DNA from: Sipunculus nudus
Taxonomy: Eukaryota > Annelida > Sipuncula > Golfingiida > Sipunculidae
Direction of reading: 5' to 3'
Length of the DNA stretch: 64,000 bases
Assembly: GCA_026874595.1 (NCBI GenBank)
Contig: CM049317.1
Coordinates: 72,499,618 to 72,563,617 of the forward strand
Part shown: in pieces, positions 3,291 to 47,768 of the stretch
Position numbering within the stretch: position 1 is the first letter of the stretch
Layout: every line of letters starts with the position of its first letter
Notes under the pieces: model-generated
Told to the model about the DNA's origin: nothing
What the model saw: only the letters and a program-made list of their open reading frames with translations
The model's database searches: none
Made by a program: the position numbers and the translations under genes

Positions 3291-6269
3291 TAATGCAGGA
3301 GATATAAATTTTTTTTACGTATATGTGGTCATCATGGGCATTGGTGAAAGCGGGATGGAGGATAAAACCACCAGGATAGTGCTCGGATAGTGTGGAAGGT
3401 GGACATAAATGTAGTGGTTTTCCAGTAAGGCGTGATGAAAGGACGAACACATATACATCCTGAATTATGTCTGAATTATAGAATTTGTATGATTGTAAAC
3501 ACGCAAAAAAAAGTATTAATAGTATTAATTTTAGTTACCCTAACCGTCATGTGAAAAATTGGATCTGACAAAAATAAATATATACATATTAACGCAATTT
3601 TTATTGAAACAGGTATGATACATAGACCAAGGAAATTAAAAGAGAGTAGGTCATGTATAATACATGTTTATTTTAAATTGCGAAACAAATGCCATAGATT
3701 TTCAACAGATAATATACCTGAAGCAATCCAGTTCCAGTAAAGAGCACCAGTAGTACCACCAATCCATGCATCTTCTTGTACAAGGGTTTTCAGAAAACTG
3801 TTTGTCTTCATGTCAAGATCGAAAGCCAGATGGCCTCCAATATCTTTGCACTTCCTCTTTGCTTCACTCCATTTTTTTCTGTCACCATTATAGCAATATT
3901 GCCTCTCTTCGACTGAAACAATGCAAATATTTTTTTGTACATTTCACAAGAGGCCGTAGCATCATGGAGAGTAAGGATGATGTACCCAGGTACATTTATA
4001 AATCATGAAATACCTCCTCTTGAAATACCCCCGTCAACCTATCTCTCTCTCGTTCTCTTGTCTGATATTTACCAAACCAATGACATTCCAGGAAAGAGAA
4101 AACAGACATGACGACACAGCAGCGTCACTTAATGCCTATTAAGTATATTATTTAAAGATATTCAGTGGCGATCTGTCTCAAGAGTATAAAATTGGTGGCA
4201 GAAATTCAGCAGGATAATCTTTTTGCTGAATATGGATTTAATTTTTACGACTGACCGGATTTAAGCAGGTTATCTTTAGAACCTAGAAATAACGCCTTAG
4301 CCTTGTTTGTCTGCATATGGGTTAGCAACGGCACCGAAGGATGTTATGAATATTTGAATGTATTTGAAGACAGGATCCCGCTGCGGGCTGCCGAGCTCAG
4401 AGTTTTCAATACACACTCAATTTGATATAAGATAGGTATTTAAAACAAATGGTAAACCTATACTTGTCATTATATATGGAGGAAAATGTGAACATATGTA
4501 TCAAATTATCGGACATCAGTATCCCAAGAATAACTATATAGCATTTTGTGAATAAAGTATTCCTTTTCCTAGGGAAAAAAATCAGAAAAATCTTGGTTCA
4601 TTTAGTCAGTGGAACACCTATCAACCATAATCAATCCCTTTAACAATTTTTTTTCTTATAAGTGGAAGTTAATTCAATTTAGTATTTATATAAATTTCAA
4701 ATAATTAAATATATGTTATAAAGAGGACGCTTAACCTTTGGGAAATAGGTGCATAAAGACTTATCCAAAGTTTGAGGTATTTCACATTAATGGTATATTT
4801 ATAGAGAACAATGCCCATTGTGGATCATTGTGTACATATGTGTACTTTTTTAAATTTTATCCGACGTAAGAAGTCGGCGCATTCCTTGTTATTATATACG
4901 TCAACAAGGTGCCGAAGGTATTTTTTCCCAGACTGGATGTCTGCTTTGTCTTTAAGCAAATTCGAACAAGCCGTTTTAAACGAATTTTAACAAAAGGAAA
5001 TTGCGGAGGGTTAGGGTAACACCGATGTAACAATCCCTTATTTATATATATATATTTAAAGGAACAATTAAGTAAGGAAAGCCCTGGAATATTAGAGTAT
5101 TTATTCTGAAGTTTAAGTCCAGGTTCAACACAATATGTATATGCAGTGCTTGTGTTTGTCAGGGCAGTATCTCCGAAAACCTCAAGAAAGGCCATGCATG
5201 TACGAATATGAAACTCTAAAGCGTTCTGATGTGGAACTACCAAAGTCGTTCTTATTCTACTGTCCTTTTGGTTTCTCTGTGTCACATCTCCCAGCATGGT
5301 CGAGTCCACACAACGTTTACTCCTTAAGGGGTACCCTTCCACAAAATTTTAATTTATTATAAACTTTACGTCTATGGCGAACCAGTGATGACTGCAAAAT
5401 AATCACAATCGACGGGGTCATAATAACTGGAGTTTTAAAGAAATACGTACGGCGGTTTGGCTTCTTTTTTAGTATAAACGCAACACACCATCTTGCCGCA
5501 ATGAGAAACATCTGAATATACTGTAAAAACAAAAAACAAAAAAAAAAAAAACCAAAAAAAAAAAACAAGCCATCAGAAAAGGGTATAATCGGTCCGCCAT
5601 GCTACTCACTTTGGCTAAAGATTTTTCTTTTGTCGGAAAGTATTCTGTTAATTTTATTGAAATTTTATCGAATGATCTGGATAATGATCATAATAGTCAT
5701 TGGCGAAGGAATTCGATATGTGAGTGTTTCAGTTTCCCTTTTTAACCCTTTGTTTGCTTTTCTTTAAGCGATAATATTAAAAACAACTTATGATTAGACT
5801 TTGATGAAAATTTGTGGATTTGGTTAGGATAACAACGTAAGATTTGAAATTAATTGAGACGAACATATGTTTTTAGGGAATATTTTCTATAGTGAGATTT
5901 CTTTATTCTACCAAGTAGCACAAACAATCACTTATATCTTGAGCGGCCTTTATTCTGGGCCTGACCTGTGATCCAACCTTGGAGCTATTGAACCGTGAAT
6001 CACATTTTCTGTGTAACAGGCAGCAAAGTTTTATCAGGATTAGGGTTATGGCCATGGCCTCGGCTGTGACTATTTTCAGATTATTGCTTTAACAACTAAA
6101 GCTAATTTGACGGCCGATCGCGTTAACGTTTTCATATTGGTGAATGGGCAGTTTAGAAATCAGATGGGCCATATAGGGATTAGACCAGGAATTAGAATGG
6201 GTATTTGGTTAGGTTATGCTGGCTAATTTCCTTATATTTAATAAAAATGTACGATTACAATTTAGGAAA
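3291..6269. other. Intergenic, no supported gene
   Basis: AT-rich sequence. A 161-codon open stretch on the minus strand (4857-5342) has no recognised domain and no ATG start, and overlaps a repeat whose relative lies near 9200-9330 (shared ggagggttag-g-gtaacac phrase). An oligo-A/C-A tract lies at about 5525-5567. Confidence 0.5.
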
Positions 6270-21887: not shown

Positions 21888-22026
21888 TGGTTCAAAGACT
21901 GATAGACTCAGCCACGGGCAACAGAATCCTCTATTCCTGGACTTATTGAAATGAATAATAAGGAATCTGCCAGCCACATTTTTTTCTTCCAAATTCTCTT
22001 GGCCATTTCCGGTCTCTTAAAGTTAA

Positions 22027-22491
22027 AGGGACATAATCAGGATCAATATTATACCTTTCTTTCACACTATCAGTTCAGTTTTGTTTTATACAAAGGTTTC
22101 CAAGCAGAATCATCTCAACACATAGTCTCATTTCCCCGCATACGGCTATTTAACACCTTGTTATGACTGTGCGTGTTGGTAAACACAGTCCACGTGTTTC
22201 TGTTTACCATAAGAAGTCTGCGTGACCGAAAGTCCTATTACGAGGAAAAACGCAGTGTTTCAGCCAGCAGGACAAGTATTATATATATTTTTTGCCTAGT
22301 CAGTCAGGGCATCTACTGATTGACACGTGTCGTGGCTCCACGCTGCACACGGCCCCACGCACTGTGTTTATGTTGACACCTACCATCCCGCCCGGTCCAC
22401 TCTTTTGGATACTCGTTTACATGAGTATTTTAAAGGGAAGAAACTATTTTTCCTGTTAACTCAACATGCTTTATAGGTAATTAGGCCCCTT
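22027..22491. mobile_element. 465-bp TTAA MITE (copy 2)
   Basis: Same length and ends as 12969-13433, with TTAA at 22023-22026 and 22492-22495. Duplicated along with the whole segment, not an independent insertion. Confidence 0.8.
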
Positions 22492-23297: not shown

Positions 23298-24137
23298 TTA
23301 CACAATGCATTTTTTGGCCATAGATCTAGTTACAGCACATGATGGATACAAACCTGGAATTTCCTGATTTTCGGGATCAGTGTTCTGATGAAGTGACGGC
23401 TTTTTTGTCACTTTTGGTACAGGCTGTACTTTGTCACCTGCAACATCATTGGCTAGTAGCAACTGGATTCCCTTAAAGGGTAAAGTAATTCTTATACCTA
23501 CAGTAATATTCCAAGAAATCAGATCTGACTTAAAATTTACATTGAGAAGCGGAACTGAAGTATGCTTGTCTGAAAACACACATGTGCATGTGCACCAGTA
23601 AAAGACCTACTAGAAAATGTCAGTGTATTTGCTAACATGAGAGTTTGGCCTGAATCAGTGTCCTTCAAAATTCTAATAGGGGTAGAATCTGTAAAATCAC
23701 TTGAAAGTGATACAAAACCATCATGTATGAATGGCTCAAATAACTCCATTTCAGAGTCAAGAGAGGAATCTACTACCTGAATTTTATCAAATAAAGAACT
23801 CACACTGTCGGTCATCAACTCTTTTTCAGAGTCACAAAAGGAATCTACATCCTTATTACAAACAAAACTCCTCGTGGGAGTCAACAGATGAATTTTCCTC
23901 AGCAGAAACAAACTTCTGTTTGTTATAAGAGGACCTGGTCTCATTTAAAATACTCTCGCAAGAGTCATAAAAGGACTTAGACTTATTTAGAGGATAATCC
24001 TTACAGGAGTCTTGAAAGGACCTAGCCTTATTAAATTCCTCGCAGGAATCAAATGAGGTTTTTACCCCGCAAGCTACGGATTCTTCTTTGGAGTCAGACG
24101 GCACGTTGGCCTCCGTAGAATCAAAATCCTTTTTAGA
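23298..24137 (-). pseudogene. Gypsy linker and protease-like region, copy 2
   Basis: Equivalent to 14241-15080. One amino-acid difference is seen in the linker (Phe in copy 1, Leu in copy 2, near 23759). Confidence 0.65.
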
Positions 24138-24347
24138 GCCAATAAAGGAGTTGTACCCCTAATTTACATGAAAAAAGCTTGGCTCTTGTACTATGCTATG
24201 TAAAGGTTTTGAAACAAACACGTTTCCAGCAGTCAGATATTAGATTACCTTCCTTTTTTGGTCTTTGTTGGACGGAGACAGAGTTGACGTGGACTGAGGT
24301 GTAGCAATGGACTTTGTTGAACTGTCAGAACTACTATTACTGGGTAA

Positions 24348-25319
24348 CTACCCCTTAAACTTCTTTTGACCATACTGATTTACATTCTTGTTTGTGAATG
24401 ACTGGTATGATTTGTTAGTACAGGGCATTTTATGTGTTAATGAATAATCATCAGCCAATTGAGTAGCAATGTCAAGTGTTTCAGGAATTTTCTCATCAAG
24501 AAAAGTTTTAACATCTGCGTTAATGCAGCGCTTAATTTCTTCAAGCAAAATCGACTGGCGCAAATTGTCATAATCTTTCATTATATTGTTAGAACTACAC
24601 CAGCGATCAAACAACTGCTCTTTAGTCCGAGCAAATTCTACATAGGTCTGATCTTTTCGCTTTTCACAATATCTAAATCTCTGGCGGTAAGCTTCCGGAA
24701 CTAACTGATAACCTTTTAGGATTAACCGTTTAAACTGGTCATATTCAGCAGCGGCCTTACAGAAAGCTCTGTATAAATTTCTCTGGCCTTGCCAGTCAAT
24801 ACACTTTGTAATAGCATAGTCCAATTTTCCTTAAACAATTTTAAATTTCAGCTACCTTCTCAAAGTGTAAGATATATTTATCAACCTCTTTCTTGAAAAG
24901 GTGGGACTAGTCTTATATGTTTAGTAACATCAAAACTGTGAGTTGGGGCAGCATGTAGACTATGTTCTACTTTAAGTCTTTCTAACTCCAGTCGTTTTAA
25001 CTCAATTTCTTTTTCTTTTTCTAGTCTTTCTATTTCTTTTTCTTTCTCTTTTACTGTTTGTTCATGTTGCATTTTTGCTTTTTTAATTCTAACTGCATAG
25101 CAAAGCTGTCATTTTTTTAATGTTTCTACTTCACTCTCTTCAATTAAACCTTAACTAACCAGATCTTGCATGATTTTAGCAATGATATCAGGTTTTCTCA
25201 AAGCTTTTTTCACACCTAGCCTAAGTGTTGTCCGAAATGCAACAACCGATCTTTTGTCAACTGTTCAAGTTGATCGGGTCGGGATCTTCAACAAATGCCT
25301 TAGGTTTGAAATGTGCCAT
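24348..25319 (-). pseudogene. Gypsy gag remains, copy 2
   Basis: Equivalent to 15291-16262 with the same frameshifts; the 158-codon capsid-like block and the coiled-coil block have identical translations in both copies. Confidence 0.75.
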
Positions 25320-26599
25320 GTTAAGATGTTAAAACAATAACAAAAAACCACTCTGATAAATGTTGTAAACAAAATTTTGTAAACAATGTGTCCAGGTCAA
25401 GGCCTAATAAATTTTCAAAACTATTAAGCATTGCCAGACTAGCCCCCAATTTTATATTACGGAACTTACTAACAACAGATCACGTAATCGTGACCAGCAT
25501 AAATTTTGTTACGGAGATCAAAAAAATTAGATTCCGCAACACTAGGCAACGTGAAATGCATAGGGAATGAATAAAGGAGTCAGTGGTTTTTTGTTAGCAA
25601 ATAGTTATAATTTATTCTTAAAACAATCCTAACATTACAGTACACTTAATCAATACATTTACACAGTGTAACAATAATACTAATGTACAGTACCAGAGTC
25701 CGGATCCTAGGCTTTGATCCTGGATACAACCATTGTCACAGCTCAACTAGTCCTTTAACACAAATAATCCAGGTGAACAGTTCATGTAAATCTTCTTGGA
25801 GAATAGTCCGATTTAATCTTAAAAACAATCTGTTGTAATCCAAAAATGAAGTTCTGGTAATAATTACAAAAGCAAACTAAAGACAATCCGCATATAAAGT
25901 CTGTATAAAATCCGTAGAAAATCTGTTAGTTCTGCAATTATCGGAAAGGTCCCCAAAACTGACGAGAGATTCACACTCTTCCGTGCCCGCTGCTATTTTT
26001 CTCTCTGCCGACTCTAAACACAGCCCCTATTTATAGCTTTTTCACCCGAAGCCCAGAAACTTCCATTTTCACGAACATTCCAAACAAAGCAATACAACAC
26101 GCGCTCAAAGCGCACGAACAGATCCGAAAATTCTAGACTACAACCAGCGCTCTGTCTCTACACGCCAGGGTTCAACCAATGCGGTTCCAATAGCAACGCC
26201 CAGGGCTTGAGCCTAATACGAATCAAAACTCCAGGCTCATAATAAACAGATACATGTAACAATGTATATATATATATATATATATATCTATATATATCTA
26301 TATATATATATAACAATACATTGATCCATAAGCTATGATCGATTCACTTAATCAATCAAGTATTCAGTCGAAATGGGAATGTGAAAATCGATTGATAAAT
26401 ATTTTGTAACCAACCTTTGATGTTAGTGTAGTTTATGTTTGTATGCATGGAAGGATTTAATTATGTTAGTGTTGTAATTCATTGGAGGATTTTATTAAAA
26501 CTTTGTTTAGGAAATAGCAGGAAAAAAACGGCGTTTCTGTAAATAACATTGAAAGAGATTCATTATAAAATTACAAACTTGTTCATAGCAATTGGTACA

Positions 26600-27041
26600 C
26601 TCACAATTAGCGCACTTCTGTGATGAAACTCTCAACAAGAGATTCTGAAGAATCACCATAAAAAGTGGTTCGAACATAGTCACACGAATCTTGTCCATGA
26701 CCCAGCAAACTAATGTATAGACAGTGTACAGTCTTGACTGCATAACCACTCTGTCAAAACAAAACGAAAGTAAACGCCAAGCATTCTTGCGGCTTCACGT
26801 GGTAAATCTGCCCTTGTAAAAGGTGACATTGTCGGTCTCAGAGTAGAAAAAAAGCTTCCGTTTTGAGGAGGAACGTTATTAAATTATACTGCCGTGACCT
26901 CAAATGAGGTACTTAATTTGATAGTAGGTGTTTCCACTCCTGTCTATTAGAATTAGCGAGGTCTGTGAAACATTATTACTTCACGTGGGTATTTGTGAAT
27001 GTCTAAATTTGCCTCTCTCTCTGTCTCTCTCTCTCTCTCTG

Positions 27042-27074
<33 letters not shown>

Positions 27075-27671
27075 TGCTAACAAATAGTTCTTCATAGGGA
27101 GATACACGTGACTACACATTCTAGGAAAAAGCGTGTGTATAAATTAACATTAAACAGACGTGATAATCTCATATTTTCCTGATACAATTTCTTTTATTAT
27201 AAGGAGAATTGTATTCGAATCGGACTTGGACTCGGGTTTCATAGGACTCTGACTCGAACAGAGTGGAATTGGACTCGTACCTGATGGACTCGGATTTTGA
27301 CTTAGATTTGAGTGGACTGGACTCGGACTTGCACTCGGTCTCGGATAGTGTGGACTCGAATACATCGCCAATGTGTAGGTGAGTGTGTGTAATATCCTCC
27401 AACCATGACGCCGGTTATCTCAAAATGTAGACGGCGCTACAATTATAGTGCGGTAACTAATTGATTTGTTTACCAGAAAGTAAATTAAAACCTTACAAGT
27501 CAACTGAAAGTGAACTTTGCAGGGGTTTTAGGTTCATGTTTACTTTTACTATTTATCTGTATCGTAAATCCCCTGTCACTGACCGTAAACAAGATGACCT
27601 GGTTGTACCTACACTGTTGGTGTACGCAGGTGACTGTAACTTTTAGTACCCGCGGCCAGTGACTAATTAAC
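26600..27671. repeat. Unit A' part 1 (copy 2)
   Basis: Recent copy of 17540-18610, including the degenerate GGACTCGGACTTG hexamer repeat and the CT tract (about 27012-27058). Confidence 0.75.
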
Positions 27672-27695
27672 TTACAGTTAGCAAATATCCGGAAA

Positions 27696-27999
27696 ACATT
27701 AGTTTTTTACCTGCGCGTGAACATTTATACATAATAATGACGTCAGTTTTATTCAGTGTAGTGTCTTTGAATGTAATATTTATCAAAACATGGACATGGA
27801 CTAACTCACTTAGTTAACAATGTATGGGTCATGACTGTTCAATTTGTCAGAGCTTTCCTACTTTGTACTTTGTGCCATTACAACTTTTGAAAGACTAATG
27901 TTGCCTTCACCATAAATAAATGTAGCTAAATCTTCTTAACACGAAAACCTGACTGCTGATGTGACAGTCTATGCCAGCAGACTTCGTCATTTAAAATGA
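27696..27999. repeat. Minisatellite region, unexpanded (copy 2)
   Basis: A single a-b-c arrangement of 304 bp, which reveals the basic unit of the expanded block at 18635-19769. Confidence 0.85.
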
Positions 28000-28509
28000 C
28001 CCTTAGGGCTACGTGTCGATTGTCATAAACATACGAACCTCCAACGTCAAAAAAGTGAGTGACTGTACTTGAAAATTTGGCTATACCATACATTTATGGC
28101 TTTTTGCGCCTCCTCTTAAATTTGTATCTGATCAGTGCTTTTTTCAGCATGCCGTTGAACGTTATTAGGGGCCATAATTTTACCTACTGCTTATGTTTTT
28201 CCTATCAAATCTAAGCCCACACTGGATCAGGATAAAAGCATCTCAGGTCTCACGAAATATGTACATTTGGGTTGCTTAAATGTTCCTCGTGTCCATTTTT
28301 TTCTGAGCCGGACTACTTATTACACCTCCACCATGAGGTACTATTGTTTTATCTTCGTTTTTTTTGTCTGGTAGAAACCTAATTTAGAAAGTCATGAATG
28401 TGTATTGACATACGTTTTTAGGGTGAGGGAAACGTCACAAGAATAATTAATTAAATTTAAGCTGTTGCCTTGGTCCCCATAATATCTTTTAATGTATGAT
28501 ATATCACTG

Positions 28510-28795
28510 TGTGACATCGAAGCCGGTGCCATTCATTATTATTAAAAGTCTGTTAGGCTTTTACTCCCGAGCCTTCTAGCTCATTATGCCGGAGCTCATC
28601 CCGGTTTCTGTAGCATGAAGCGATGGATGCTAGTCCATCGCAGGTTACTTTTAGTGGTACCCATTTCTACTGCTGGGTGGACAGAGGCACACTGGAGGCT
28701 GAGACTTTGCCTAAGGGCCCTGGCATGGTGGGGGTCTGACTGGGATTCGAACTCACGACCTCTCGATCATGAGCCCGGCACCTTAATCAAAACAC
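28510..28795 (-). mobile_element. tRNA-derived SINE-like repeat (family S2), copy 2
   Basis: Duplicate of 20280-20565 with the same B-box-like gagttcgaatccca on the minus strand. Confidence 0.5.
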
Positions 28796-29982
28796 CAGGG
28801 GCGTAGCCAGGATTGAGGGAGGGCAGGGGGCCATCATCAGTGGCGGATCAAGAAATTCAAAAACGGGGGGGGGGGGGGGGCGCTAATATGCATGTCTGGG
28901 TAATATGAAAACAGTTATATATACAAATATATATATTATTATGATTTTTACTAAACTTTATATATTGAAGTATATGAAAATATATATATTTTTTATTTTC
29001 AATTATGAACCATGGTATAATTAAGGCTAGTTACGGGTACATGGGGAAGGTATGGGAGGGGGTTTCCCCATCACATATTGGGAAATCTTTTTTATATACA
29101 ATGTAAAGAGGACATTTTGAAGCAGTTTTCACCAAAAAATGAGGATTTCCTGTTCCTGAAAAACTGTTTCCTTATGTCTTTGCGTTATGTAATCAAACTT
29201 TAGAGAGGTTCAATATTTAAGATTTATATTTCTTCAACATTAGGAAATAAAATTTCCATCTTTTTCAAACGAGTCAATGGCGCAAAAGCGCAATCACGTT
29301 TGTAACCATCAAAATATTATCTTTTAAATGTAATGCTCGTGGTGAAATAACTGATAAGCTGAATTATTATGTAAAACTTCGCATTTTACCGGTTTTTGTG
29401 GTCTCGACAGCACGCAGGACTCCTAAGAGCTCAACACGGATCGCGAGTTTGAGTACCGGTATCACCAGAGGAGCCGTAAGATTGTTCACGGTCGACCCCA
29501 ACCAGGGCCCGGTGCTCGATCGATCTGCAGTTGTTCTGCAGCTGTGACCCAAGGGCGGATCCAAGATTTAGGTAAATGGGGGTCCAATCCAGGACTAATG
29601 AAAATCCTAAAAAAAAGGTCATCACGTCTGGAAAAGGGGGGGGGTCCAGGCCTAAAAATAACGTCTAAAACCCCTTAAAAAAGGTTGCTTCGGGTGAAAA
29701 GGGGGGGGGGGGGGGTCCGGACCCCCTGGACCCCCCCCCCCGGATCCGCTTCTGCACTGTCCATAAATATCCTTATACTCAACAGATAAAGTGATTGTAA
29801 CTGCAGTTAACTTAAATAAAGTCTAATTGCTTATTAATAATAAGAAATATGAAAAACGAAAATTAATCACGAAAATCGGAAATAAGATAAAATTAGAGAT
29901 TTTGCAGCTCAACGAGGGGCCGCGCGCCGAAGCCGCCCTCTCTGAATCTGCTACTGGTAGCATATATCCGCCCCTGATTTAA

Positions 29983-30045
<63 letters not shown>

Positions 30046-30162
30046 TAATTAGATTATGTGAAATACCGAAAGGACGGCGAGTACTGGATGCGACCGGGGC
30101 GGGGGGGGGGGGGGGGCCATGGCCCCCTGCGCCCCCCCCCCCCCCCCTTGGCTACGCCCCTG
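28796..30162. mobile_element. Composite (nested) DNA transposon, complete copy
   Basis: The left end CAGGGGCGTAGCCAGG and the right end (inverted, 30146-30162) are terminal inverted repeats, flanked by aaacac on both sides (28790-28795 and 30163-30168), a likely 6-bp target duplication. Inside is a second pair of inverted ends (cagtggcggatcaaga near 28838 and its diverged partner near 29935-29955), and inside that the 200-bp MITE (29553-29750). No transposase ORF is present. Superfamily uncertain. Confidence 0.65.
29553..29750. mobile_element. Nested 200-bp MITE (copy 2)
   Basis: Ends gggcggatccaaga and, inverted, cggatccgct. Poly-G/poly-C tracts inside differ in length from copy 1, as expected of unstable homopolymers or sequencing error. 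Confidence 0.6.
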
Positions 30163-33605: not shown

Positions 33606-34859
33606 TTAGGCTGCTCTGAGGGCTTTATTTTGTTGAACTTCTAGTTTATATAAGTGTGTCATAGCTGCACCTAAGAAAGCTATGGATCCGTACATGCCTA
33701 TAGGGCGGATCCATTGTTTATATAGGTGTATAGCTGTCTCCAGTTTAGGTATGTCCTTCTTATAGCACACAGCCTTTAGAGCATGAATCCTACTCAACAT
33801 TCGTCGACTGATATGCTCTATGTGTGGGCGCCAAGTGTTTTTTTTTTGGTCAAAAATTACACCTAAGAACCTGGCAGCGTCCGAATCTTTAAAATTATCA
33901 CCTAACAGTTTTAAGGGTTCCAAATACTTTGGTTTGTACGCTTTACTAAACAAAACCAATTGTGTTTTTGTTGGATTTAGTTTGATTCTCCAAGTGTTGG
34001 ACCAGTTGCTTATGCGGTCAAGCTGGGCTTGGACTGCGTTGCGTGAACAGCAAACGTTGGAACAAATGGCCCAGTTGGCTATGTCGTCAGCGTATGGTGA
34101 AACGCTTACCATTTGTCCCGTCTTCGGAAGGTCGTTAACATACATGATAAAGAGTAAAGGTCTCAGCACTGAGCCCTGGGGAGTCCCAGCTTCAAGAGTA
34201 ATCTCCTCAGATATTTTACCATTATGATAAACCATAAGGGATCTTCCTGTCAGGAATGAGGACATTAATCTCACTAGTATGTGGCAGATGGGATCCCATA
34301 ACTTTAATGCGGACACCGTCAGACCACTCTGCATCAAAGGCCTTTTCTACGTCGAGATGTGGTGTCTTCGTTTCATACCATTCATAATGGCCTTACTGAG
34401 CCGGAATATGTGGTCGTCATCAAAAAATGGGCCACCCAACTCGGCCGTTCTAGTCTCTAAGAACTTAGTAATTCGGTTTTTAAGGTTTTTTTTCAAATAG
34501 CTTGCCCTGGCAGGGTAGCAAGCTGATAGGCCTGAAATTTGTCGGTTTGTCAATTGTCTTGCCAGGTTTTGGGATCATTATTACTAATGCCCTTTTCCAT
34601 TCAATCGGAAAATATCCCCATGAATGCACAGCTTGTAAAGGTTTGCAATTCTCCCTAGACAGGGGTCTGGCATTTTCTTTAGTATTTTGTAAGTGAGTTT
34701 GTCCAGACCAGGGGATGATTTGCCTTTGGATTTGGAAAGAGTCCGTTTAACTTCAAAAACTCCCACTGGTCTTACTGCTGCGTTGTCGCCACCGTCTTCC
34801 GTGGTTGGGTTTTCTAGAACCTGGTAAAATGGGTGAATTGGAGAGAGGATGCCTGGCAA
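33606..34859 (-). pseudogene. Non-LTR reverse transcriptase, frameshifted
   Basis: Three frames follow one another: 34859-34584 (S-P-G-L-D-K-L-T-Y-K-I-L-K, the RT finger motif), 34553-34347 (a palm segment), and 34337-33606 with P-Q-G-S-V-L-x-P-L-L-F and the catalytic Y-A-D-D, then a thumb-like region ending in N-K-A-L-R-A-A and a stop. The catalytic box is intact but the frameshifts make the gene inactive. Confidence 0.85.
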
Positions 34860-37048: not shown

Positions 37049-37054
37049 TTTATT
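37049..37054 (-). terminator. Candidate poly(A) signal for mucin-like gene
   Basis: This is the first AATAAA on the minus strand downstream of the stop codon, about 740 nt away, at the edge of repeat unit A'. No closer AATAAA was found. The position is weak evidence without transcript data. Confidence 0.3.
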
Positions 37055-37791: not shown

Positions 37792-40459
37792 TCAAAACTC
37801 GCCATATATATCATTTTCCGTCATGACCACAGAATCCCTTTTTTTATCACTATTTGGTTGAGCTTCTGAATCCCCTTTCCTACGTTGAAAGAAATTGAAC
37901 TTGCCTTTAGGTTTGTCTGCTATCTTTGGTTTCGAAGACACGTTCGGATTCTTCACCTTTACGGGCACAGCGTACTCATATTCCCCATTACCCTTGCTGC
38001 TCTCGGCCGGAGGGTTTGGAATCTTGGGTTTTAGTTTCAGATTTACATCAGGCTTAGCGTAAACTACTTCTTCAGTTTCATTTTCAGTCTCTTTACCTTT
38101 AGTTTTCCCTTTGCCTGTTTTCGCTTTCGATTTTTCCTGCTTCATCTTGGTAGTTTTGTTGTCTTTCTTGGATTTTCCCGACTCCTCTTTGCTGCTTGGT
38201 TTCACAAACACAGTGTCCTCGTAAAATACTTCTTCTACAGCGTTAGAAGATGCACCACTTTGATCCTGTTTCTTTTTGGATTTATCAGGCTGAGCGTAAA
38301 TCGCTTTTTCACTCTCGTTTTCATCTTTTGATTTCTTGGTCTTTTTATCTTTCTTTCTTTCTGGTTTTGGGGGTTTCGTGTTTGCAAACTTCTCGGGTTT
38401 CACTGGCTGCGCATCTTCGTAGATACTGTCCGGTTCCGTAGCTGTTTTATTTACCTGCTCTTTGGGTTTTACAGGTTCGGCGTCTTCATATATGTTCTCT
38501 GCATCTTTAGGCTTCTTGCTCACTGGCTTGATAGGTTTCACAGGCTGGGCTTCTTCGTAAATATCATCTTGGCTTGGCGGTTTTTTGCTCATGGGTTTTT
38601 CGGACTTCATTGGTTGTGATTTCGCGTAGATATTCTTTGGTTTTGGTGATCTGCTGTTCATATGTTTAGTAGGCTTTACTGGTTGTGCTTCTTCATAAAT
38701 ATCTTCATTAGCCATCGAGGGTTTTCCTGCTTTTGAGATGGAGCTTTTCATAGGAAGCTGGAACTCTCCATACACGTCGCCTTCATCCTCTGCGGTTGAA
38801 TCCGCCAAAGACGAAGATGACCCGTGCGTCCTTTTCTTCATCACTGGGTTAGGTTTGGAATGCTTTTCTTTAAGCTCGTTTGAGCTATTCAAAGATTCAT
38901 TACTTCTGTTTATTGCAGTCTTGCTTAATTTTGGCTTCCCTGACATCCCCTCCGGTATACCATCTTTTGCTCTATCTTTCTCAGACTTTAAGTTCTTCTC
39001 GAGGTTTGCTTTGATCTGCTTAAAAAACGCTGCTTCTTCGTAAACATCGTCCTCTGAATATTCATCAACCTTGCCTGTGTTTCCTTTAGCTAAATTTTTT
39101 TCTGGCTTGACAGGCTTTACATTTTCCTTGGGGTTTCCTTTTTCCTTTTTGCCAGTTTTCGGACTGACACATGATTTGATTTGATATTTCTTATTATCTT
39201 CACTGGTTGCTTCTTTTTCTTGCTCCTTTTTTCCAGCTTTCGGACAGGCGCGTGATTTGATTTGATTTTTCTTATTATCTCCACTAGTGGTATTTTTGGC
39301 GTATTCCTTTTTGCCAGCTTTTGGACTTAAGCATGGTTTGATTTTATCATTCTTAGAACTTTCATTGGTGTCTTGTTGGGTATCTGATACTTTAGTTTGT
39401 ACTGTTGATGGACCACCTTTATTTTTCGTTCCACACGATTCCTGTCGTTCAGTCTGTCCTGATTTAGGAAACAATGCCTCACCGTAAATATCATCTTCAC
39501 GTTCATTTTCCCTTGCTTTGGGGTCATCATCTTTCTTCTTTTCAATTGTTCCCGGAGGCGAAACGGCGGATTGCTTACTTACCGTTGCTTTAGCATTTTC
39601 ACCAGATGTATTTTTGTCAGGATTTTGGACAAGAGTAATATTACTCCTTTTACTATTACCTTCACTTTCCGCTGATTCTTCCTTGGTCTTCCCGACAAGT
39701 CGTGTTGCCTTTGCCATCTGTGGTGTTACACCTGCTGCGGCCGAGTTATTTTTCATTATAAATTTCATCTCTGCCAGAAAGGAGTGTGGGGGATTCTGTG
39801 CCTTTGACTGGGTTTCGTCTGTCGTGGAAACGATCTTTTTTGCTGGATTCTCTTCCTCCTTTTGCTGATTTTTTTTGTCAATGGATGGTATTAGTGATAT
39901 CAAACTCCTTGGTTTTCCAATCTTATCTGGAAGTTCAGGTGCCTCTTCGGGTGGCGAAGGGTGTAAAGTGCCTTCTTTCGTCGTGCTTGGAGCTGTCTCC
40001 TTGCTGTCTTCAGTGGCAATGGAATCATCGTTTTTATTCTCGTTTTTTGTGGACACTGTCTTCAGAGTATTAACACTTCCTGTGCCCTCTCCTTTCGGTT
40101 TCTCTTGACTCTCAATCGTTTTGCTTTTGGAGAATTTCTGACCACCAGAAATGCGGAATTCAGAAATGTTGTAGGAATTACGTTTGTTCTTCTTACCACT
40201 ATTTCCATTCTCTTTAGTCTGTTTTTCGATAAATATTGTAGTGACCCTACCATTTGGCAATGAACAACAACGGTCAGGGGCTTTGTCTGCCGCTGCACTC
40301 AGAGGCATTGACGTGGAGTATTTCAGATGTGTCGTACCAGCGTCTGTGCTTCGTCCACTGATCTCATTTACCACAGATAAAGATGCGACTCCGTTTGTTC
40401 CATTATCAACATACAATTTCTCAGCCGACTGCCGTGTCTTCTTTGCGTTTTTCCTCTTC
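37792..40459 (-). CDS. Exon 4 of mucin-like gene: entire cytoplasmic tail
   Basis: A 2668-nt terminal exon, open throughout, encodes residues 366-1254. It is strongly Lys/Glu/Ser/Pro/Asn-rich and looks intrinsically disordered. Two internal repeat systems are visible. One is three 27-residue units built on I-K-x-x-x-x-P-K-x-G-K-K-E (isoleucines at about 739, 766 and 793). The other is five 23-residue units each holding I-Y-[EA]-[EDK]-[AS]-[QE]-P-[VM]-K (tyrosines 954-1046). Further tyrosine sites lie before and after, and the protein ends with D-I-Y-G-E-F and the stop. No kinase, SH2, SH3 or PDZ domain is seen, so it would act as a binding and phosphorylation platform. Coding this whole tail in one exon may reflect growth by repeat expansion. 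Confidence 0.88.
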
Positions 40460-40562
40460 CTGTAACTGAAACGGAAACATATAGGTCTACGTTAAGCGAG
40501 TCTTGCCAAAAATGGCTCGAACACATCATGAAAATTACTTGTGGTAGTATAATACATGTATA

Positions 40563-40609
<47 letters not shown>

Positions 40610-42043
40610 ATATTTATTTACATATGCCTCGTAGCTAAAAGGCAGCAGGTGCACAACAGACCCTCATATATCTGAAAAGTTTGTGTTCCTGAATAAACCC
40701 ATTTTCAACACAAACCTTGAAAAACAAATACCCTGTCTGTTCAACCTCCGCTGAACCACTTACATTAATAGGCACTCCTTCATACCCTAACCTCCATTCA
40801 GTGGTATGATAAATTTTAAGTGTATAAAAAAAGGAGAAACTGTTAAAATTAATAGAGTACATCATTCCTTATCAAATACATCGATTTGTGTGTACTACAA
40901 TACATGTGTATACCACAATTCATACGACTCGGGAACATATATACGATCGAATATCATAGAACCCGTAGATCGAAACAAAATTCTTGTTTCAAGATGCATG
41001 GATGAAAAAATTTCATGTATTTAAAAACTTATTCCCTCATGTCCATACGCATGGAGGGCATCATGTTGGATGCACTGTGCGAGTTCGGTCTAGCATGAAA
41101 ATGGAAAATGTAGCGTCTAACCACTGGTAACCATATTGTACTGCTGAAAAATTTAACTGCAATTCATAAGTGAGGCACAAACTCGAAGAGACGGAGGGTC
41201 CAGTCTAATGAACTCCGTTAATTCATTTAAAAAATGGAAAATAAAAGACGACGGTGTACCAGTACCTATATAAAGAAAGGAAATGACAGCCGTTCCTTAA
41301 TTATCGCTCAGATTTATACATCGTAACAGAAGGAGGGAGCAGGCTGAAAGAACCCAGTGAACGGATAAAAGTGGACGGCACCCAAAGAGTGCATACCTCC
41401 GCCGGCGTACACTTTCTATTCAGTTACTCGCTCATATTTATTCACTTTACCAGCCTATCTTCACAAATTCTCTCAACCAGGTCCCAGTACTTTGGTTCTT
41501 AATTTTTTTCAGAGGTACACAGAGAAAAAACAGTAATTCAGTATCTACATCTATAAGTAAACTAACTGCTATATCGTTCCGATTCAGTGTCCGACATATT
41601 CACAGAATTCTTATTTGAAACAAACGTATTTTAGATATATGGTACATATACAAAAAATGACAGACAGACATAAAGACAGAGAACAGACACGGATACATGG
41701 CGATAACATAACCTCCGGTGTAAAAGACATAACTGCCGTAATCCTGTCCGTTGAGAGAATCATAGAATCAATATTTACTATGTGCAACCATTGGCTTGTG
41801 CTCCCTAAAGGTTCGATACTCTAATGCCAGTGACAGACATAGCCTTACAACCATATAAAAACTTCATGTAAAGTGCAGGGTCATACATCCTGTCATTGAA
41901 TCGGGACTCCAGATAGGATTTGTTTAATTGTGTGTAGAGTATGAGGTCGCGATAAAGGTTAAAGGTCACAGAACTGAGGAAATATTCGCGATAAGGCTTT
42001 AGCTACGGCGATTCAGGCATTTGCTGGATGGTTGCTGGGTAGG

Positions 42044-42106
<63 letters not shown>

Positions 42107-42193
42107 CAAAGACAAACAATATGATGGTTTTATAAATATACCATGGTACACCTAAAGAAAAAATTGATTCAACAAAGACTGTAAATTATACCT

Positions 42194-42282
<89 letters not shown>

Positions 42283-42952
42283 AGTCAAACCCGCTTTTTG
42301 TCATGTCACCGGGACATGGTACAATTATGACAATAACCGGGATGTTGTATTATGCATACTTCAACATCGATATATACATACATATATATATTTATATGTG
42401 TGTGTGTCGCATATGTGTAGATGTACATGTATTATCTCTTGCTGGGATTTCTTTATGCTCAAGGCTCTGTAATACCTGCCTGGTACGTTCAACCCTTCCT
42501 TATACTAGTATATTACAGTATGAGAGCTACTTACCAACAAAGCAGGATCAGTACAATGATGATGACGATAATGAAGGAACACGTTAAACTTGTACCCAGG
42601 ATGAAGAAGAACTCTGACCTAGGAGGTACCGTGGTCCCTGAAATGAGCGGACATGTGAAAAAAAAACACAAGTTCATAAAAACATTGCAACCATAAACAT
42701 CCGCAAATTTAGACTGACAATAATACAAAACTGACATTACATATTTATATTTTAATAAATGTCAGGTCAGTCATAAGATTAAAATTATATTTAGTATATT
42801 ACAGAATTATTAAAACACAGTGATAATACACTTGAATATATCACATATATACATACAAACACATATATGTGTTAATGTATGGGTGGGTGGTGTGGGGTGA
42901 TGAATGTTCTCATCTATTCTTAATTAACATTAACTATCTAACTTTCTACGTC

Positions 42953-43017
<65 letters not shown>

Positions 43018-43589
43018 TATGTTATTTTAACAATTCGAGCTAAAGTGCTCGATATTATTGTACAGCATGTTATGATTTACTTTCATAACGGTCCACATGG
43101 TGTCACACCGTTCGTGGTGGCAATCGTCGGGGGGGGGGGGGGGGCGGGCAAGGGATCTGGACCCCCCCCCCCTTTTTTTCAGCACCTGCAACCTTTTCTT
43201 TAAGTGTTTCAGACCAATTTTTCGGCCTAGACCCCCCCCCCTTTTCTGGATCTGGGAACTTTTTAAGGCTCTGTCATTAGTCCTTTTAGGTTCGACCCCT
43301 CCTTTTCCTAAATCCTTGATCCGCCCCATGGTCCGGTGGTTTAAATGTGGGGGATTTGTGGCGGCATTTCGAGATTAATTCTGTTGAGACAATTGTTCCT
43401 GCTGGTTGTTATAATTAATTTTTTCTTTAAGGCACAGGTTACACAGTCCGCTTTTTCGTTTATGTGTGTTTGATATTTTCGTTACATCCCATCGAATTGT
43501 GTAGTCTTTCTCTTTTTCTTTCAGTTTCCAGATAATTAATTATAGCAACCAACACGAACCTTGAGTAGCGATGAGGACCGTTATGTAAG

Positions 43590-43666
<77 letters not shown>

Positions 43667-46600
43667 AAATGAAGACGAATCAGGTATTTTCAGACATTTT
43701 ACAACTAAGTAGTTTCGTGCAACATGTTGTTACACTCATATCTGGTAAAGCTTTCTGGCTGAAATGGACTAGATCATACCGGTATATGCATGTTACAGAG
43801 ATATGCGACCCTGAATGTATATATGTTACTGGCCTGTTGTGTCACATGTAACCAAGACTGTTAAATGATAATGTGCGCCCTGAGGCAAAGACACAAGCAT
43901 CAAATAGAGTTCGTCGGGATATATATATATTGAAGTGTAGGTAAAGACACAACTTTTAAAGAGTGACACCCCTAATTTAAGTAAACAACTTAGATAATAA
44001 ATCATATTAAAGGCGTCACTCTTCCTCTCTACATGTCGACAAAAGACTAAAGCCCCGTTCCCACTTTCACGAATTTGACGCCTATTCGCCATGATGTTGA
44101 ATTCGTGGCGATTCGTGGCCAATCGGCCTGTCGAGTGATAAAAATTCCATCACGACCACGATATTGTACGAAAGGAGTACGATGCCAGTACGATTGGCTA
44201 CGACAGTGACACGAAGCCAGCACGATATGACAGGACACTTTTAAGAATGTTCACGGCTCCGTGACGACGTCTAAGATACTGGTACGATATTTCCACGATT
44301 GATCCGCGACTTGTGGACGATACTCATACGATCATTCAATTTTGCTACGGATTGTTAGATAGCTATACATGTGATATATAGCTATTGTAATGTCACAAAG
44401 AAGCCGATATTAGTAAAAGGACACCATAACAACACTTCAATCAACTTCTTCAGATATTTTAATTTGACAAAAGTTATCTAGTTTAAAACACTGATAATAT
44501 ATGTCTTATTTGATTTGAGTAATTAGACAATTACGACTTATTTATGTGGTGGCAAATACGACGTTAACTTCTTTAAGTCCAAGTAGACGACCGTCTTAAT
44601 CGGATGTAAAATATCTGTATTCGCAAAATATTGGTTAAAATATCTTATTGATTCAGCTCTCAATGTGATATAAGATTCTGTTAATATCAATTTGTGTTAG
44701 GCTCAGTTTATTCTCCCATAGTAAAATAGGAAATTCATAATTTATTATATTGACCATATGTTTAAGTATGACGAAACTGTATAATATATTCAGCTTCTTA
44801 AAACTGTTTTGGTTCAAATTTATTTTGTCAACCAATATCCACGATAAAAAATTTCTTTAAAACAAATTTACGAAACTACATGTTTTTTTCACTGCAAAAA
44901 CTTCCTTGTTTGTTTACAAGAAGTAACAAATTACAAAGGAAACGTAATTTGATTCAGCTTCTTCAAATTATTTTAGTTCAAATTTAGTTGGAACCAATAA
45001 CCACAATACAAATCTTCTTTAAAGCAAATTTACAAATCTACACAGTGTTCTTACTTCTAAACCTTATTCCTCATTGGTTTGTAAGAAGTTAAAAATCACC
45101 AAGAAAATAAAATTTTCCGTCACATTATGATGTCAGTTCTTGATGATTCGTCACCAAATTCGTGAAAGTAGGAAGGGGCTTTATGAACGTGACTCTCTCT
45201 TGAGAGGTTCTTGTGGTAGTCGTATTGTAGTCGTGTTGAAGTCGTGTCGATGTCATTGTCCTTCGTGAGCATTCGTGACATTGTTTTACATCACGAATTT
45301 ACAAGAATTATGAAGACTCTCATACGACTTACCAAGAAACTGTTACGACTTAGCTACGACTTGTGACGACAAAGCTTAATTTTTGAACATTTCAAAAATA
45401 GCGCCACGAATTCTGAGTGCTCAAGACCTCGCTACGAACATTACCGAATGTTCAAGACATCATCTACGACACTCCCACGACGTCTCTACGAATTTTAATG
45501 ATGTAAGTTCGTGGCGATTCGGCGTCAAATTCGTGAAAGTGGGAACGGGGCTTAACACGGCTAAACCATTGATCATATATATTGAAATATGCATATATAC
45601 TTTTATACTTAATTATACTTACCTCTAGTTACGGCTGTTGTGTTCTCTGAGGTCACGTTTTCTGTAGAACTAGATGAATTCCAGGTTGCCGTGATTTCTT
45701 CAGTAGTCGATCTGGATGTGGAGACGGTCTTTGTTATTGGACTTTTTGTTGAAGGGATTTGTGTGGAGTATGTTGCCGGTACGGTTGTATGAACTGTTGT
45801 TGGTTGAAAAGTTGTTATCACTCTTGCTGTAGTTGTTGGCTGTGTGACAATTTGTGTTGTCACACTTGACGTTGTCTGAACTGTAGTTATAGGCTGTGTT
45901 GTCACACTTGACGTTGTCTGGACTGTAGTCGTAGGTTGTGTTGTCACACTTGACGTTGTCTGGACTGTAGTTGTAGGTTGTGCTGTCACACTTGACGTTG
46001 TCTGGACTGTAGTTGTAGGTTGTGTTGTCACACTTGGCGTTGTCAGGACTGGTGTTTTAGGCTGTGTTGTTACACTTGCAGTTGTGTGGACTGTACTTGT
46101 TGGAGAAACCGATCGTGTTGCCAGGCTTTCTGTTGCTGTAACTGGATTTGTTGAAGTCGCTGGTGGCGTTGTCTCATTTATATCCTCTGTTGTGTCTGAT
46201 GTTGATGTATCTAATGCCGGTGAGTTCGTAACCAAATTTGTTGTTGTTAATATTGCTTGTGTTGTAGTTGTTATTGTTGAGATTTCTGGTGAATTTAAAT
46301 CTTGTGTTTTCTTTGTAATTTCATTTTCTGTTGTATTTCCCGCAGTAGCAGGTACGATGGCTGTATTTTCCTTTGACGCTGTACTTGTTGCGGAGGCTGT
46401 CGTTGCTATGGATACACTTGATGCTGTTAGTGAAGATGTCGTGATATTTCCTGCACGTGTTGAATTTTCGTTTAATGTCGTATTTGACGATGACGCAGTT
46501 GACGCTGCGGTATTGTTTGATGTTGTCCATGGTTCTGTTGAAGAAAAGAGTAAGTAAAAAGTATCAAACTATGCAATAACACTTCAGGCCATACGAAAAA

Positions 46601-47768
46601 AAATATTTGTTCTATTTTTCATGGATAAATTACTGTTTTTAAATGAAGACCAGTTTTGGTGATGTTGCTAATTACTAAAATTTATTGATCAAATACACCA
46701 TTTCAAGAATTGAAGTTTTGAATTTCTTGGTAAGCAGGCAAAATTTGACATATTGTTTCTTGACCGATGGAGAAAAAGAAATAATTCACATGCTTGCAGC
46801 ATATATTGTTCCCGGGTCCGTATAAAACAGTATTCTATTGTGTGTGGCCAGAATTGTTAAACCAATATTTAATTAATTCCGTGTTTAACTGATAAGTTCA
46901 TAAGAGTGTCTATGGAATTTTGGATGAGCAGAAGAATGATAATTAAATCTTCTGGATTTCAGGGTTTCTATGCCGGGGACTAGAAATAATTTCGAAATCA
47001 GAGACTCCAGCTATTACATTATAATAAACTTAATACAAGCAATTTTGATTCATTGTTTTGCTCAGGAAGAAACGGTGATCTCAAGCTTCGGAAGTCAGCG
47101 TCTTAGGATATGATCTACCTTATTCAAATAAGCGACTACTGTTGTACGGCAGTTTTCACATACATAAGCTTATTATTTTACATGTATTGCACATTTAGTT
47201 TAAATGGCTAATGTAAGGCACACGAAACGGCGCGGACGTTGGCTTTCGTTAGCCTATAGGGGTGGAAGAAAATTGAAAACTCGGAAAAAAACCGCCCACC
47301 TCGGTCGGACCACTACAACCCACTCACATACAGGGAATCGAGCACGAGCATTTTACCACTCGACTGTCTGGCACCACAAAGAATGTAAAGTATGATCAAT
47401 GATACATAATAGTATTATATCTTCTGTTCGTAAGGTAAACGATAATTACCATTTTGAAGTTGTTCGATTAAATTTAAATAAAAGTTTCATACTGCAATTA
47501 TTTCTGTTTTTATTTCGACACCTGATAAAAATGTATCATCCTGATGTGGAACAACCGACCCGCCTATGAATGTTGCTTGATATTCCACTTGAATTGATAT
47601 GTTTAAGAAAATTTATTTGTATACTATTGTATATTAGAGATAAATCATTGAGACAGATGGACAGACAGACAAAAAGAAACACTTACTATTTGTTGTCGAG
47701 GACGCCACATGCTTGATCTTAACTGCAAATCCCAAAATAAATATAACAGATGCGGGTAAAAGCCTCAT
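37792..47768 (-). CDS. Mucin-like type I membrane protein with giant tyrosine-motif tail (4 exons, 1254 aa)
   Basis: The coding sequence joins, on the minus strand, 47768-47687, 46534-45623, 42637-42535 and 40459-37792. Every intron has GT at the donor and AG at the acceptor, three donors read GTAAGT, and phases (1, 1, 2) match at each junction, giving 1255 codons with one terminal TGA. Predicted parts: signal peptide 1 to about 22; Thr/Ser/Pro-rich cysteine-free ectodomain to about 340; transmembrane helix 341-365; basic stop-transfer W-K-R-K; disordered Lys/Glu/Pro/Ser-rich tail 367-1254. Tail tyrosines in acidic-[IV]-Y-[EG]-[ED]-[AF] or Y-A-x-P contexts lie near residues 691, 839, 929, 954, 977, 1000, 1023, 1046, 1087, 1112, 1166, 1195 and 1251. 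The context resembles Src-family substrate sites, so a role as a cell-surface phosphotyrosine scaffold is inferred. I do not recognise the family. A secreted or truncated isoform from alternative splicing cannot be excluded. Confidence 0.85.
38459..38803 (-). repeat. 69-bp coding tandem repeat (five 23-residue tyrosine units)
   Basis: Five consecutive units with tyrosine codons exactly 69 bp apart (protein 954, 977, 1000, 1023, 1046). The core I-Y-E-[ED]-A-[QE]-P-V-K-P is shared by four units; the second reads I-Y-A-K-S-Q-P-M-K. The linkers between cores have diverged while length is unchanged. Unit ends are approximate. Confidence 0.8.
40557..40606. repeat. (TA)n microsatellite
   Basis: TA dinucleotide run in intron 3 just upstream of exon 4. 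Confidence 0.9.
42045..42280. repeat. Two (TA)n microsatellites
   Basis: Runs at about 42045-42098 and 42197-42280 separated by 100 bp of unique sequence, in intron 3. Confidence 0.9.
42535..42637 (-). CDS. Exon 3 of mucin-like gene: transmembrane helix
   Basis: 103 nt, entered in phase 1 and left in phase 2. It encodes a short juxtamembrane segment (T-T-V-P-P-R-S-E) and then 25 hydrophobic residues rich in Ile, Val, Leu and Phe (protein 341-365). The Trp codon completed across the junction is followed at once by Lys-Arg-Lys in exon 4, the usual positive-inside stop-transfer signal. The acceptor after CTCATTTCAG and the GTAAGT donor (42534-42529) are consensus. Confidence 0.85.
42956..43013. 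repeat. (TA)n microsatellite
   Basis: Uninterrupted TA run in intron 2. Confidence 0.9.
43129..43329 (-). mobile_element. Inverted relative of the 200-bp MITE
   Basis: The reverse complement follows the order of 29553-29750: ggcggatc-aggattta, gggggtc, ggactaatga, poly-G, gtctaggcc, aaaggttgc, poly-G, gtccagatcc. Confidence 0.55.
43589..43658. repeat. (TA)n microsatellite
   Basis: About 35 uninterrupted TA units in intron 2. Confidence 0.9.
44051..45552. mobile_element. Harbinger-like non-autonomous element (1.5 kb)
   Basis: Perfect 32-bp terminal inverted repeats (44051-44082 and 45521-45552) starting AGCCCCGTTCCCACTTTCAC, flanked by TAA on both sides (44048-44050, 45553-45555). A 3-bp TAA/TTA duplication is typical of PIF/Harbinger elements. 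The subterminal regions are dense in TACGA/CACGA words. A second, diverged right terminus lies inside at about 45146-45180, so it is compound. It has no transposase and lies in intron 2 of the mucin-like gene. Confidence 0.85.
45623..46534 (-). CDS. Exon 2 of mucin-like gene: Thr/Ser-rich ectodomain
   Basis: 912 nt, phase 1 at both ends, so it could be skipped without a frame change. It encodes residues 28-332 as an almost pure Thr/Ser/Ala/Pro/Val sequence without cysteine. Near residues 173-254 (about 45856-46100) is a tandem array of a 42-bp unit encoding about 14 residues of the form S-V-T-T-Q-P-T-T-T-V-Q-T-T-S, around six units. Several N-x-S/T sequons are also present. This composition is the hallmark of a mucin-type O-glycosylated stalk. 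There is no globular domain, so a rod-like extracellular mucin segment is the simplest reading. Confidence 0.85.
45856..46100 (-). repeat. 42-bp coding minisatellite (mucin repeats)
   Basis: About six head-to-tail 42-bp units inside exon 2, each encoding Val-Thr-Thr-Gln-Pro-Thr-Thr-Thr-Val-Gln-Thr-Thr-Ser-Ser with few changes. The central units are nearly identical, which suggests recent homogenisation and likely length polymorphism between alleles. Confidence 0.85.
46535..47686 (-). other. Intron 1 of mucin-like gene
   Basis: 1152 bp, GTAAGT donor and CTTTTCTTCAACAG acceptor on the minus strand. I see no gene or recognisable transposon in it; a 63-codon plus-strand ORF at 47204-47395 has no supporting features. 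Confidence 0.8.
47687..47768 (-). CDS. Exon 1 of mucin-like gene: signal peptide
   Basis: The ATG at 47768-47766 sits in a good context (ACA before, A after) and is the first in-frame ATG after an in-frame TAA near 47912. Two short out-of-frame upstream ORFs begin in the preceding 90 bases. The 27 whole codons start Met-Arg-Leu-Leu-Pro and continue with a hydrophobic stretch (about residues 4-16) typical of a signal peptide. The exon ends in phase 1 at a GTAAGT donor (47686-47681). Confidence 0.82.

Follow-up and report, generated by a model that had tools for sequence, protein, structure and literature searches.

The window analysed here, a 64-kb stretch of the Sipunculus nudus genome (C12:72499618-72563617) that was read together with 100 kb of flanking sequence on each side, contains a minus-strand gene predicted to encode a surface receptor with a mucin-like stalk and a long, tyrosine-rich intracellular tail. 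The gene spans 47768-37792 and consists of four exons of 82, 912, 103 and 2674 nt. Exon 1 (47687..47768, minus strand, like all four) begins at an ATG (context GCACAATGA), encodes what is judged from its sequence to be a signal peptide (MRLLPASVIFILGFAVKIKHVASSTTN) and ends in phase 1 at a GTAAGT. Exon 2 (45623..46534), flanked by phase 1 on both sides, encodes a Thr/Ser-rich mucin-like stalk with 9 non-overlapping N-glycosylation sequons and no Cys. Exon 3 (42535..42637), entered in phase 1 and left in phase 2, encodes one transmembrane helix (...FFFILGTSLTCSFIIVIIIVLILLC), at which hydropathy in a 19-residue window peaks at 3.08 (residue 348). Exon 4 (37792..40465, stop included) encodes a juxtamembrane segment with a di-cysteine and basic residues (CCYRKRK) and a tail of 890 residues. 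An AATAAA polyadenylation signal (37049..37054, minus strand) follows 737 nt past the stop.

The gene structure is supported by the splice sites and the reading frame. All three introns (1.2, 3.0 and 2.1 kb) are of the GT-AG type, beginning with GTAAGT, of which there are 22 on the minus strand of the window, and ending with CAG; their phases are 1, 1 and 2, and the joined exons form a single open frame of 1256 predicted residues. A Pfam scan of the whole model returned no family at the cut-off (five weak matches, E 0.055-0.29), and thus no recognised catalytic domain; exon 4 likewise has no domain above the cut-off. The surface receptor architecture described in the initial annotation, with four phased exons, a signal peptide, a mucin stalk, one transmembrane helix and a noncatalytic tail, was therefore confirmed when the model was rebuilt from the sequence, while its lengths of 1254 residues for the protein and 888 for the tail are corrected to 1256 and 890. 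Within intron 2 lies an element (44050-45553) with 45-nt terminal inverted repeats, 93% complementary, that looks like a non-autonomous DNA transposon.

The stalk and the tail differ in composition. Ser or Thr occupies 148 of the 306 stalk residues and Pro 20, and part of the stalk is a 42-bp (14-residue) tandem repeat of 5.9 copies (45852..46100, minus strand; TRF). By charge and hydropathy the tail, which is 17% Lys, is classed as disordered, and the stalk is not. The tail also contains an 81-bp repeat (39142..39355, minus strand; 2.6 copies) that encodes Lys-rich units of 27 residues with the core [SC]PK[AT]GKKE.

The tail is enriched for particular tyrosine motifs far beyond chance. The model has 22 tyrosines, 21 of them in the tail, and we list 13 as array sites: six YE[ED][AT], three YGE[FA], three YAxP and one YAKS. 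The count of about 13 given in the initial annotation thus holds, but its description of these tyrosines as lying in near-identical acidic contexts lumps distinct classes. In 20,000 shuffles of the tail composition, YE[ED][AT] occurred on average 0.04 times and YGE[FA] 0.01 times, and no shuffle reached the observed six and three. Similarly, 12 of the 21 tail tyrosines follow Ile, Val or Phe ([IVF]Y), compared to a shuffle mean of 2.1, a count that again was never reached, and YAxP was found three times (mean 0.10, P = 3e-4). The total of 17 motifs obtained for the tail, like those of 18 and 15 in a scan of 264 kb described below, comes from a pattern that may count one tyrosine twice.

The array is most regular in five consecutive units of 23 residues (38389..38733, minus strand), in which Tyr956, Tyr979, Tyr1002, Tyr1025 and Tyr1048 are spaced exactly 23 residues apart around the consensus core IYEEAQPVKP. 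Ile at -1, Tyr, Pro at +5 and Lys at +7 are kept in all five units despite differing codons, and the array tyrosines themselves use a mixture of TAT and TAC. We compared replacement and silent differences per site (pN and pS) among the units. In the core (-3 to +8), pS is 0.91 and pN 0.18, giving a pN/pS of 0.19 (0.11 without the unit of Tyr979), compared to 0.67 (0.58) in the linker (-12 to -4); the difference between core and linker is significant by column resampling with 5000 draws (P = 6e-4, and 2e-4 without that unit), and the lowest ratio among 2000 sets drawn at random from the codons of the tail was 0.62. Across all 13 listed sites (residues -3 to +3), pN/pS is 0.41, a value that reflects sites chosen by their tyrosine. 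Since the silent sites are near saturation and the core ratio is far below that of the linker, the motif has been under purifying selection. We regard this constraint as the best argument for a real protein with a meaningful motif, and sequences from other species are not needed to make the case.

The motifs resemble known substrates of tyrosine kinases; here and below, published work is cited from excerpts of the papers concerned. EIYGEF peptides are described as Src substrates in papers on holozoan Src kinases, and the SrcTide of 1995 is GAEEEIYGEFEAKKKG (PMC10065799). Two tail sites, DVYGEF and the C-terminal DIYGEF (37795..37812, minus strand), are close to the classical SrcTide core EIYGEF. 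Both c-Src and c-Abl favour a bulky aliphatic residue at -1, and the further preferences of c-Abl are for Ala at +1 and for Pro at +3 (PMC10065799), a pattern that the tail sites KAIYAQP, EVVYAKP and YAVP resemble. Four array tyrosines (956, 1002, 1025 and 1048) are followed at +5 to +8 by PVKP, in three cases as PVKPxK. The class II SH3 pattern is PxxPx[KR], and it has six matches in the tail, three of them the array PVKPxK and three elsewhere. Motif enrichment, likeness to SrcTide and to the c-Abl pattern, and selection on the core agree with the kinase-substrate character that had been proposed for the array, although the status of these sites as Src and Abl substrates is a match of sequence.

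A second tyrosine-array tail lies on the same strand, 11.3-13.3 kb to the left of the window, as an open frame of 660 residues (C12:72486310-72488289). Among all frames of at least 60 residues in 264 kb, only this frame and the receptor tail have more than two array motifs; the next best has two. Upstream exons of this neighbour were located by splice signals and phase, and its 3' half, comprising two stem exons rich in Ser/Thr (41 of their 98 residues), a transmembrane exon and a tail of 627 residues, joins into 756 residues without a stop, although its donors (GTGAAT, GTCAGT and GTAAAT) are weaker than those of the receptor gene. The two genes have the same transmembrane-exon phases (1 in, 2 out) and the same tail phase (2), paired juxtamembrane cysteines (CC in the receptor, CxC in the neighbour), and tails that begin with CKERKHAKPCHQS in the neighbour and YRKRKNAKKTRQS in the receptor and end with DNDIYGDM and ENDIYGEF, respectively. 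This repetition of the stem, transmembrane and tail design supports the receptor gene model. The two tails are not alternatives of one gene; exon 3 ends in the split codon TG and the neighbour tail exon begins with A, so that joining them gives a TGA stop.

The arrays of the two genes are also alike. Four neighbour tyrosines are spaced 36, 36 and 36 residues apart, and Y[DE]x[AT]xF[MVA][RK]P describes the six sites that have Phe at +5, the sixth departing from it at +6 to +8. The commonest units of both genes share Tyr, an acidic residue at +1, Ala or Thr at +3, Val or Met at +6, Lys or Arg at +7 and Pro at +8, and YEDTVFVKP of the receptor (Tyr1114) is intermediate between the two unit types. 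In the neighbour, pN/pS is 0.38 in the array core (-1 to +8) compared to 0.90 and 0.93 in linkers, a contrast that is tilted towards the core because the six sites were picked from 13 tyrosines by their Phe at +5. Direct BLASTP comparison of the tails gave 24% identity over 285 residues (E 3e-4) and a separate juxtamembrane block (E 0.023). None of 500 shuffles of single residues reached the Smith-Waterman score of the two tails. When 12-residue blocks were kept intact, 5 of 500 did, and the tails could therefore be alike in part through common motif content; it is the exon phases and collinear ends that argue for homology. We read the two genes as an old tandem duplication, and the repeated design suggests a small receptor family that relays surface signals.

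The neighbour may carry a different ectodomain. Upstream of its stem, transmembrane and tail exons, on the same strand, is an open-frame C-type lectin exon (3671..3943, minus strand) that matches Lectin_C at E 5.8e-6 (27.4 bits; cut-off 22.6). A second lectin exon pair lies upstream of the stem, about -8.1 to -9.1 kb from the window and on the same strand; its second exon scores 21.9 bits, the joined pieces 24.0 and the first exon not at all. The second exon ends in phase 1, as the stem requires, but the reading frame changes within it, and the lectin part of the neighbour may be broken or misassembled. Order, strand and phase make it possible that the lectin exons belong to the neighbour gene. 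Pfam gave no match for a WSC domain suspected in one exon of the neighbour (window -1303..-1118), and none is claimed. Lectin-like exon pieces were also recognised by eye on the other strand (L010:361-2971, plus strand; C12 ~72479978-72482588), where they converge with the tail of the neighbour. One of these (L010:2798-2968, plus strand) scores 18.9 bits against Lectin_C, below the cut-off, and two other frames tested gave none; the region around the neighbour may hold several lectin-like genes.

No lectin exon was found for the receptor gene in the frames scanned. Pfam detected no family above the cut-off in 10 of the 40 open reading frames listed for its introns and start region, where one DUF4074 match (E 0.063) stayed below it, and none in 12 of 58 frames listed for the part of the window upstream of these, and tblastn with the lectin, stem-side and transmembrane pieces of the neighbour found nothing below E 0.3 upstream of the gene. 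Exons of phase 1-1 can be gained or lost with the frame intact, which would explain how a mucin-only and a lectin-bearing member could be adjacent.

In the protein database, the tail region had no match at E ≤ 10 among the 8000 candidates sharing most words with it, and the transmembrane-juxtamembrane region none among 3419 candidates; a PDB sequence search with the tail also gave no match. The database does hold relatives of open reading frames from this genome, since a reverse-transcriptase frame in the same window (33612-34346, minus strand; RVT_1 E 1.1e-13) had 204 matches. A search of the whole genome (1.43 Gb, 153 contigs) with the tail (44 candidates) returned the tail itself and four weak places. 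On reading, the one on contig 3 (E 0.0017) is a tandem-repeat coincidence and that on contig 1 (E 5.8) consists of repeats. The other two (C7:19282188 and C7:19331845) are short Lys-rich tails with YAQP (E 0.94 and 1.49, not significant), the first with a Ser/Thr stem and a transmembrane exon just upstream; they are possible distant relatives and serve as leads only. An Ig-like domain considered in the first contig 7 gene had no Pfam support, and a three-sequence alignment with the contig 7 tail was set aside because the relation of that tail is unproven. The tail of the neighbour (17 candidates) found only itself; the two tails thus miss each other in whole-genome searches, their similarity emerging only in the direct comparison, and a local tblastn with SEG also missed the neighbour. 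In the open-licence literature searched, none of the matches listed described this architecture in its title or the opening of its abstract.

Elsewhere in the window, 12829-21879 and 21887-30112 form a tandem duplication of ∼8-9 kb (aligned blocks of 5934 bp at 99.7% and 2423 bp at 99.3%), each duplicate with the same SCAN-domain (gag-like) open reading frame (15294-15773 and 24351-24830). At 18634-19769, tandem repeats are nested at periods of 121, 239 and 471 bp, the copies of the longest period being 99% alike. Further long open frames lie at window -7008 to -5948 and in the right flank; some look transposon-derived by eye.

We consider it probable that the gene encodes a single-pass surface scaffold receptor, with a mucin-type stalk outside the cell and a disordered tail that would serve Src- and Abl-class tyrosine kinases as a multi-site array for phosphorylation and docking. 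For this receptor, we infer phosphorylation, the identity of the kinases, SH3 and SH2 binding, a ligand and a cell type, and the steps proposed here are conditional in that sense. Ligand binding to the glycosylated stalk, or crowding of it, would cluster the receptor, and a membrane Src-family kinase would phosphorylate the IYE[ED]A and [IV]YGEF sites. The PVKP after four array tyrosines could hold the SH3 domain of the kinase and so aid phosphorylation; the phosphorylated sites would hold SH2 proteins, and the kinase might be handed on along the tail in steps of 23 residues. Closer to the C-terminus, the YAxP sites would match the preference of Abl; in phosphorylated form they could recruit Crk-type SH2 domains, which could drive Rac and actin as in adhesion or engulfment.

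Several results weigh against this interpretation. Lys is disfavoured by c-Src at all positions (PMC10065799), and the Lys-bearing tail sites match the c-Src preference less well. Plain YxxP is not enriched in the tail (three compared to a shuffle mean of 1.58, P = 0.20). Tyr841 and Tyr979 are not followed by PVKP (Tyr979 has PMKS), and the PVKPKE of Tyr1025 misfits PxxPx[KR]. The tail has no match to the immunoreceptor tyrosine-based activation or inhibitory motifs (ITAM and ITIM) or to YxN, YxxM, NPxY or YEEI-like Src-SH2 patterns. The lack of a relative in the protein database also counts here, although it is weak evidence, since low-complexity words limit such a search, as does the lack of a certain further relative elsewhere in the genome in searches with both tails. 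The block shuffles and the choice of neighbour sites described above belong on the same side.

If the tail were instead mainly a charged, disordered spacer, or an endocytic or cytoskeletal anchor, its tyrosines would not form a signalling array. The high Lys content and predicted disorder would fit such a role, and two tyrosines (YGEF) match the endocytic YxxPhi pattern; however, the constraint on Tyr and its core greatly exceeds that on the spacers, in the receptor gene as in the neighbour, and I-Y-(E/D)-x-A...K/R-P recurs in register, which is not expected of a spacer. We regard this alternative as unlikely. Still less probable is a chimeric model, in which the mucin exon comes from a secreted or other membrane protein and the transmembrane exon, the tail exon or both come from another transcript. 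The gene model rests on genomic sequence, its introns are 1.2-3.0 kb long and intron 2 holds an inserted element, as would be compatible with a chimera, but the donors and acceptors are uniform with consistent phases, the neighbour independently has a stem, a transmembrane exon (1 in, 2 out) and a tyrosine tail in the same order and in an open frame, the frames scanned in and upstream of the gene (10 of 40 and 12 of 58) gave no Pfam family above the cut-off, and the TGA stop shows that the two tails are not interchangeable. A transmembrane version of p130Cas acting chiefly through pYxxP and Crk has YAQP, YAKP and YAVP in its favour, as well as the published binding of Crk-type SH2 domains to phosphopeptides from a transmembrane YxxP protein of a choanoflagellate (PMC5043372). 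It is nevertheless the least probable reading: just three of the 21 tail tyrosines lie in YxxP, which is not above chance, Pfam detected neither an SH3 nor a FAT domain in the whole model, and the selected core is Y[ED]xA rather than YxxP.

If the scaffold receptor is made as predicted, one polypeptide would combine mucin recognition (in the neighbour, perhaps lectin recognition) with a Src/Abl-type array, with neither an ITAM nor a kinase domain. We tentatively propose, as a possibility short of an even chance, an undescribed invertebrate family that conserves its transmembrane exon (phase 1-2), together with a Src/Abl relay tail encoded by one exon, and swaps its ectodomain through phase 1-1 exons: a mucin stalk here, a C-type lectin with a Ser/Thr stem in the neighbour, and perhaps a third type in the two contig 7 genes. 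Such a family would connect the recognition of lectin and mucin type directly with a tyrosine-substrate array by a route other than ITAMs, and the neighbour offers a view on the way in which surface receptors of invertebrates might exchange their ectodomains over a common signalling tail. Repeat units that are near saturation at silent sites and yet keep their motif are a natural experiment on the needs of Src-type kinases and their SH3 and SH2 partners: the surroundings of the tyrosine, a proline motif placed at +5 to +8, and a constant distance between sites (23 residues in the receptor, 36 in its neighbour). With such an array, processive phosphorylation of many sites on a membrane scaffold can also be tested directly.

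Known systems share parts of this design. Membrane mucins have a Ser/Thr(/Pro)-rich glycosylated ectodomain on one transmembrane helix, with a SEA domain in the MUC1 type; the receptor shares the Ser/Thr-rich tandem repeats and the single helix, with a modest Pro content, but the tails of membrane mucins are usually short, and Pfam found no SEA domain in the whole model or in 10 of the 40 open reading frames of the introns and start region. p130Cas/BCAR1 has an array of up to 15 repeated tyrosine motifs, phosphorylated by Src-family kinases, in an unstructured region (PMC10435235). It is like the receptor in this array and differs in being cytoplasmic, with SH3 and FAT domains and YxxP motifs, where the receptor has a transmembrane helix and mainly Y[ED]xA. 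Judged by the defining features of the CAS family (PMC5043372), the receptor has neither an N-terminal SH3 nor a C-terminal FAT-like domain by Pfam, and with three YxxP, not above chance, the label 'p130Cas-type' used in the initial annotation is inexact.

Closer in topology are arrays that are themselves membrane-bound. YxxP-repeat proteins of Salpingoeca rosetta, PTSG_05573 among them, are predicted to be transmembrane with a repeated tyrosine array in the cytosol, and a choanoflagellate transmembrane protein with 10 YxxP motifs is described (PMC5043372); the S. rosetta motif includes YDVP, and the likeness is by description only. The transmembrane adaptor proteins (TRAPs: LAT, PAG/Cbp, LIME, NTAL, LAX, SIT and TRIM) have up to 10 tyrosine motifs that are substrates of Src- and Syk-family kinases, and several (LAT, LIME, NTAL, PAG) carry a palmitoylated juxtamembrane CxxC (PMC2803307). 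They appear to resemble the receptor in the single helix, the long multi-tyrosine cytoplasmic region and the juxtamembrane Cys, although the receptor has CC and the neighbour CxC, in a similar position with other spacing, and the short extracellular part of TRAPs contrasts with a mucin-like stalk of ∼310 residues and an 890-residue tail. DCBLD1 and DCBLD2 are transmembrane scaffolding receptors with 8 and 7 intracellular YxxP that are targets of Fyn and Abl, which drive CRKL binding to them (PMC6029619). They share with the receptor a noncatalytic multi-tyrosine tail, phosphorylated in their case by Src-family and Abl kinases, and differ in their CUB/LCCL/FV-FVIII (discoidin) ectodomain and YxxP motifs, where the receptor has a mucin stalk and mainly YE[ED]A and YGEF; Pfam found no CUB, LCCL or discoidin domain in the whole model, and YxxP occurs three times, not seven or eight. 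CAS proteins, TRAPs, DCBLD receptors and MUC1-type mucins each have defining features that the receptor lacks, and it is filed under none of them. The view that multi-tyrosine scaffolds are normally cytosolic does not hold for DCBLD1/2, the TRAPs or the choanoflagellate YxxP protein, and DCBLD1/2, LAT-type adaptors and the choanoflagellate proteins are precedents for transmembrane substrate arrays. The protein described here, as its sequence suggests, would work like a transmembrane scaffold receptor.

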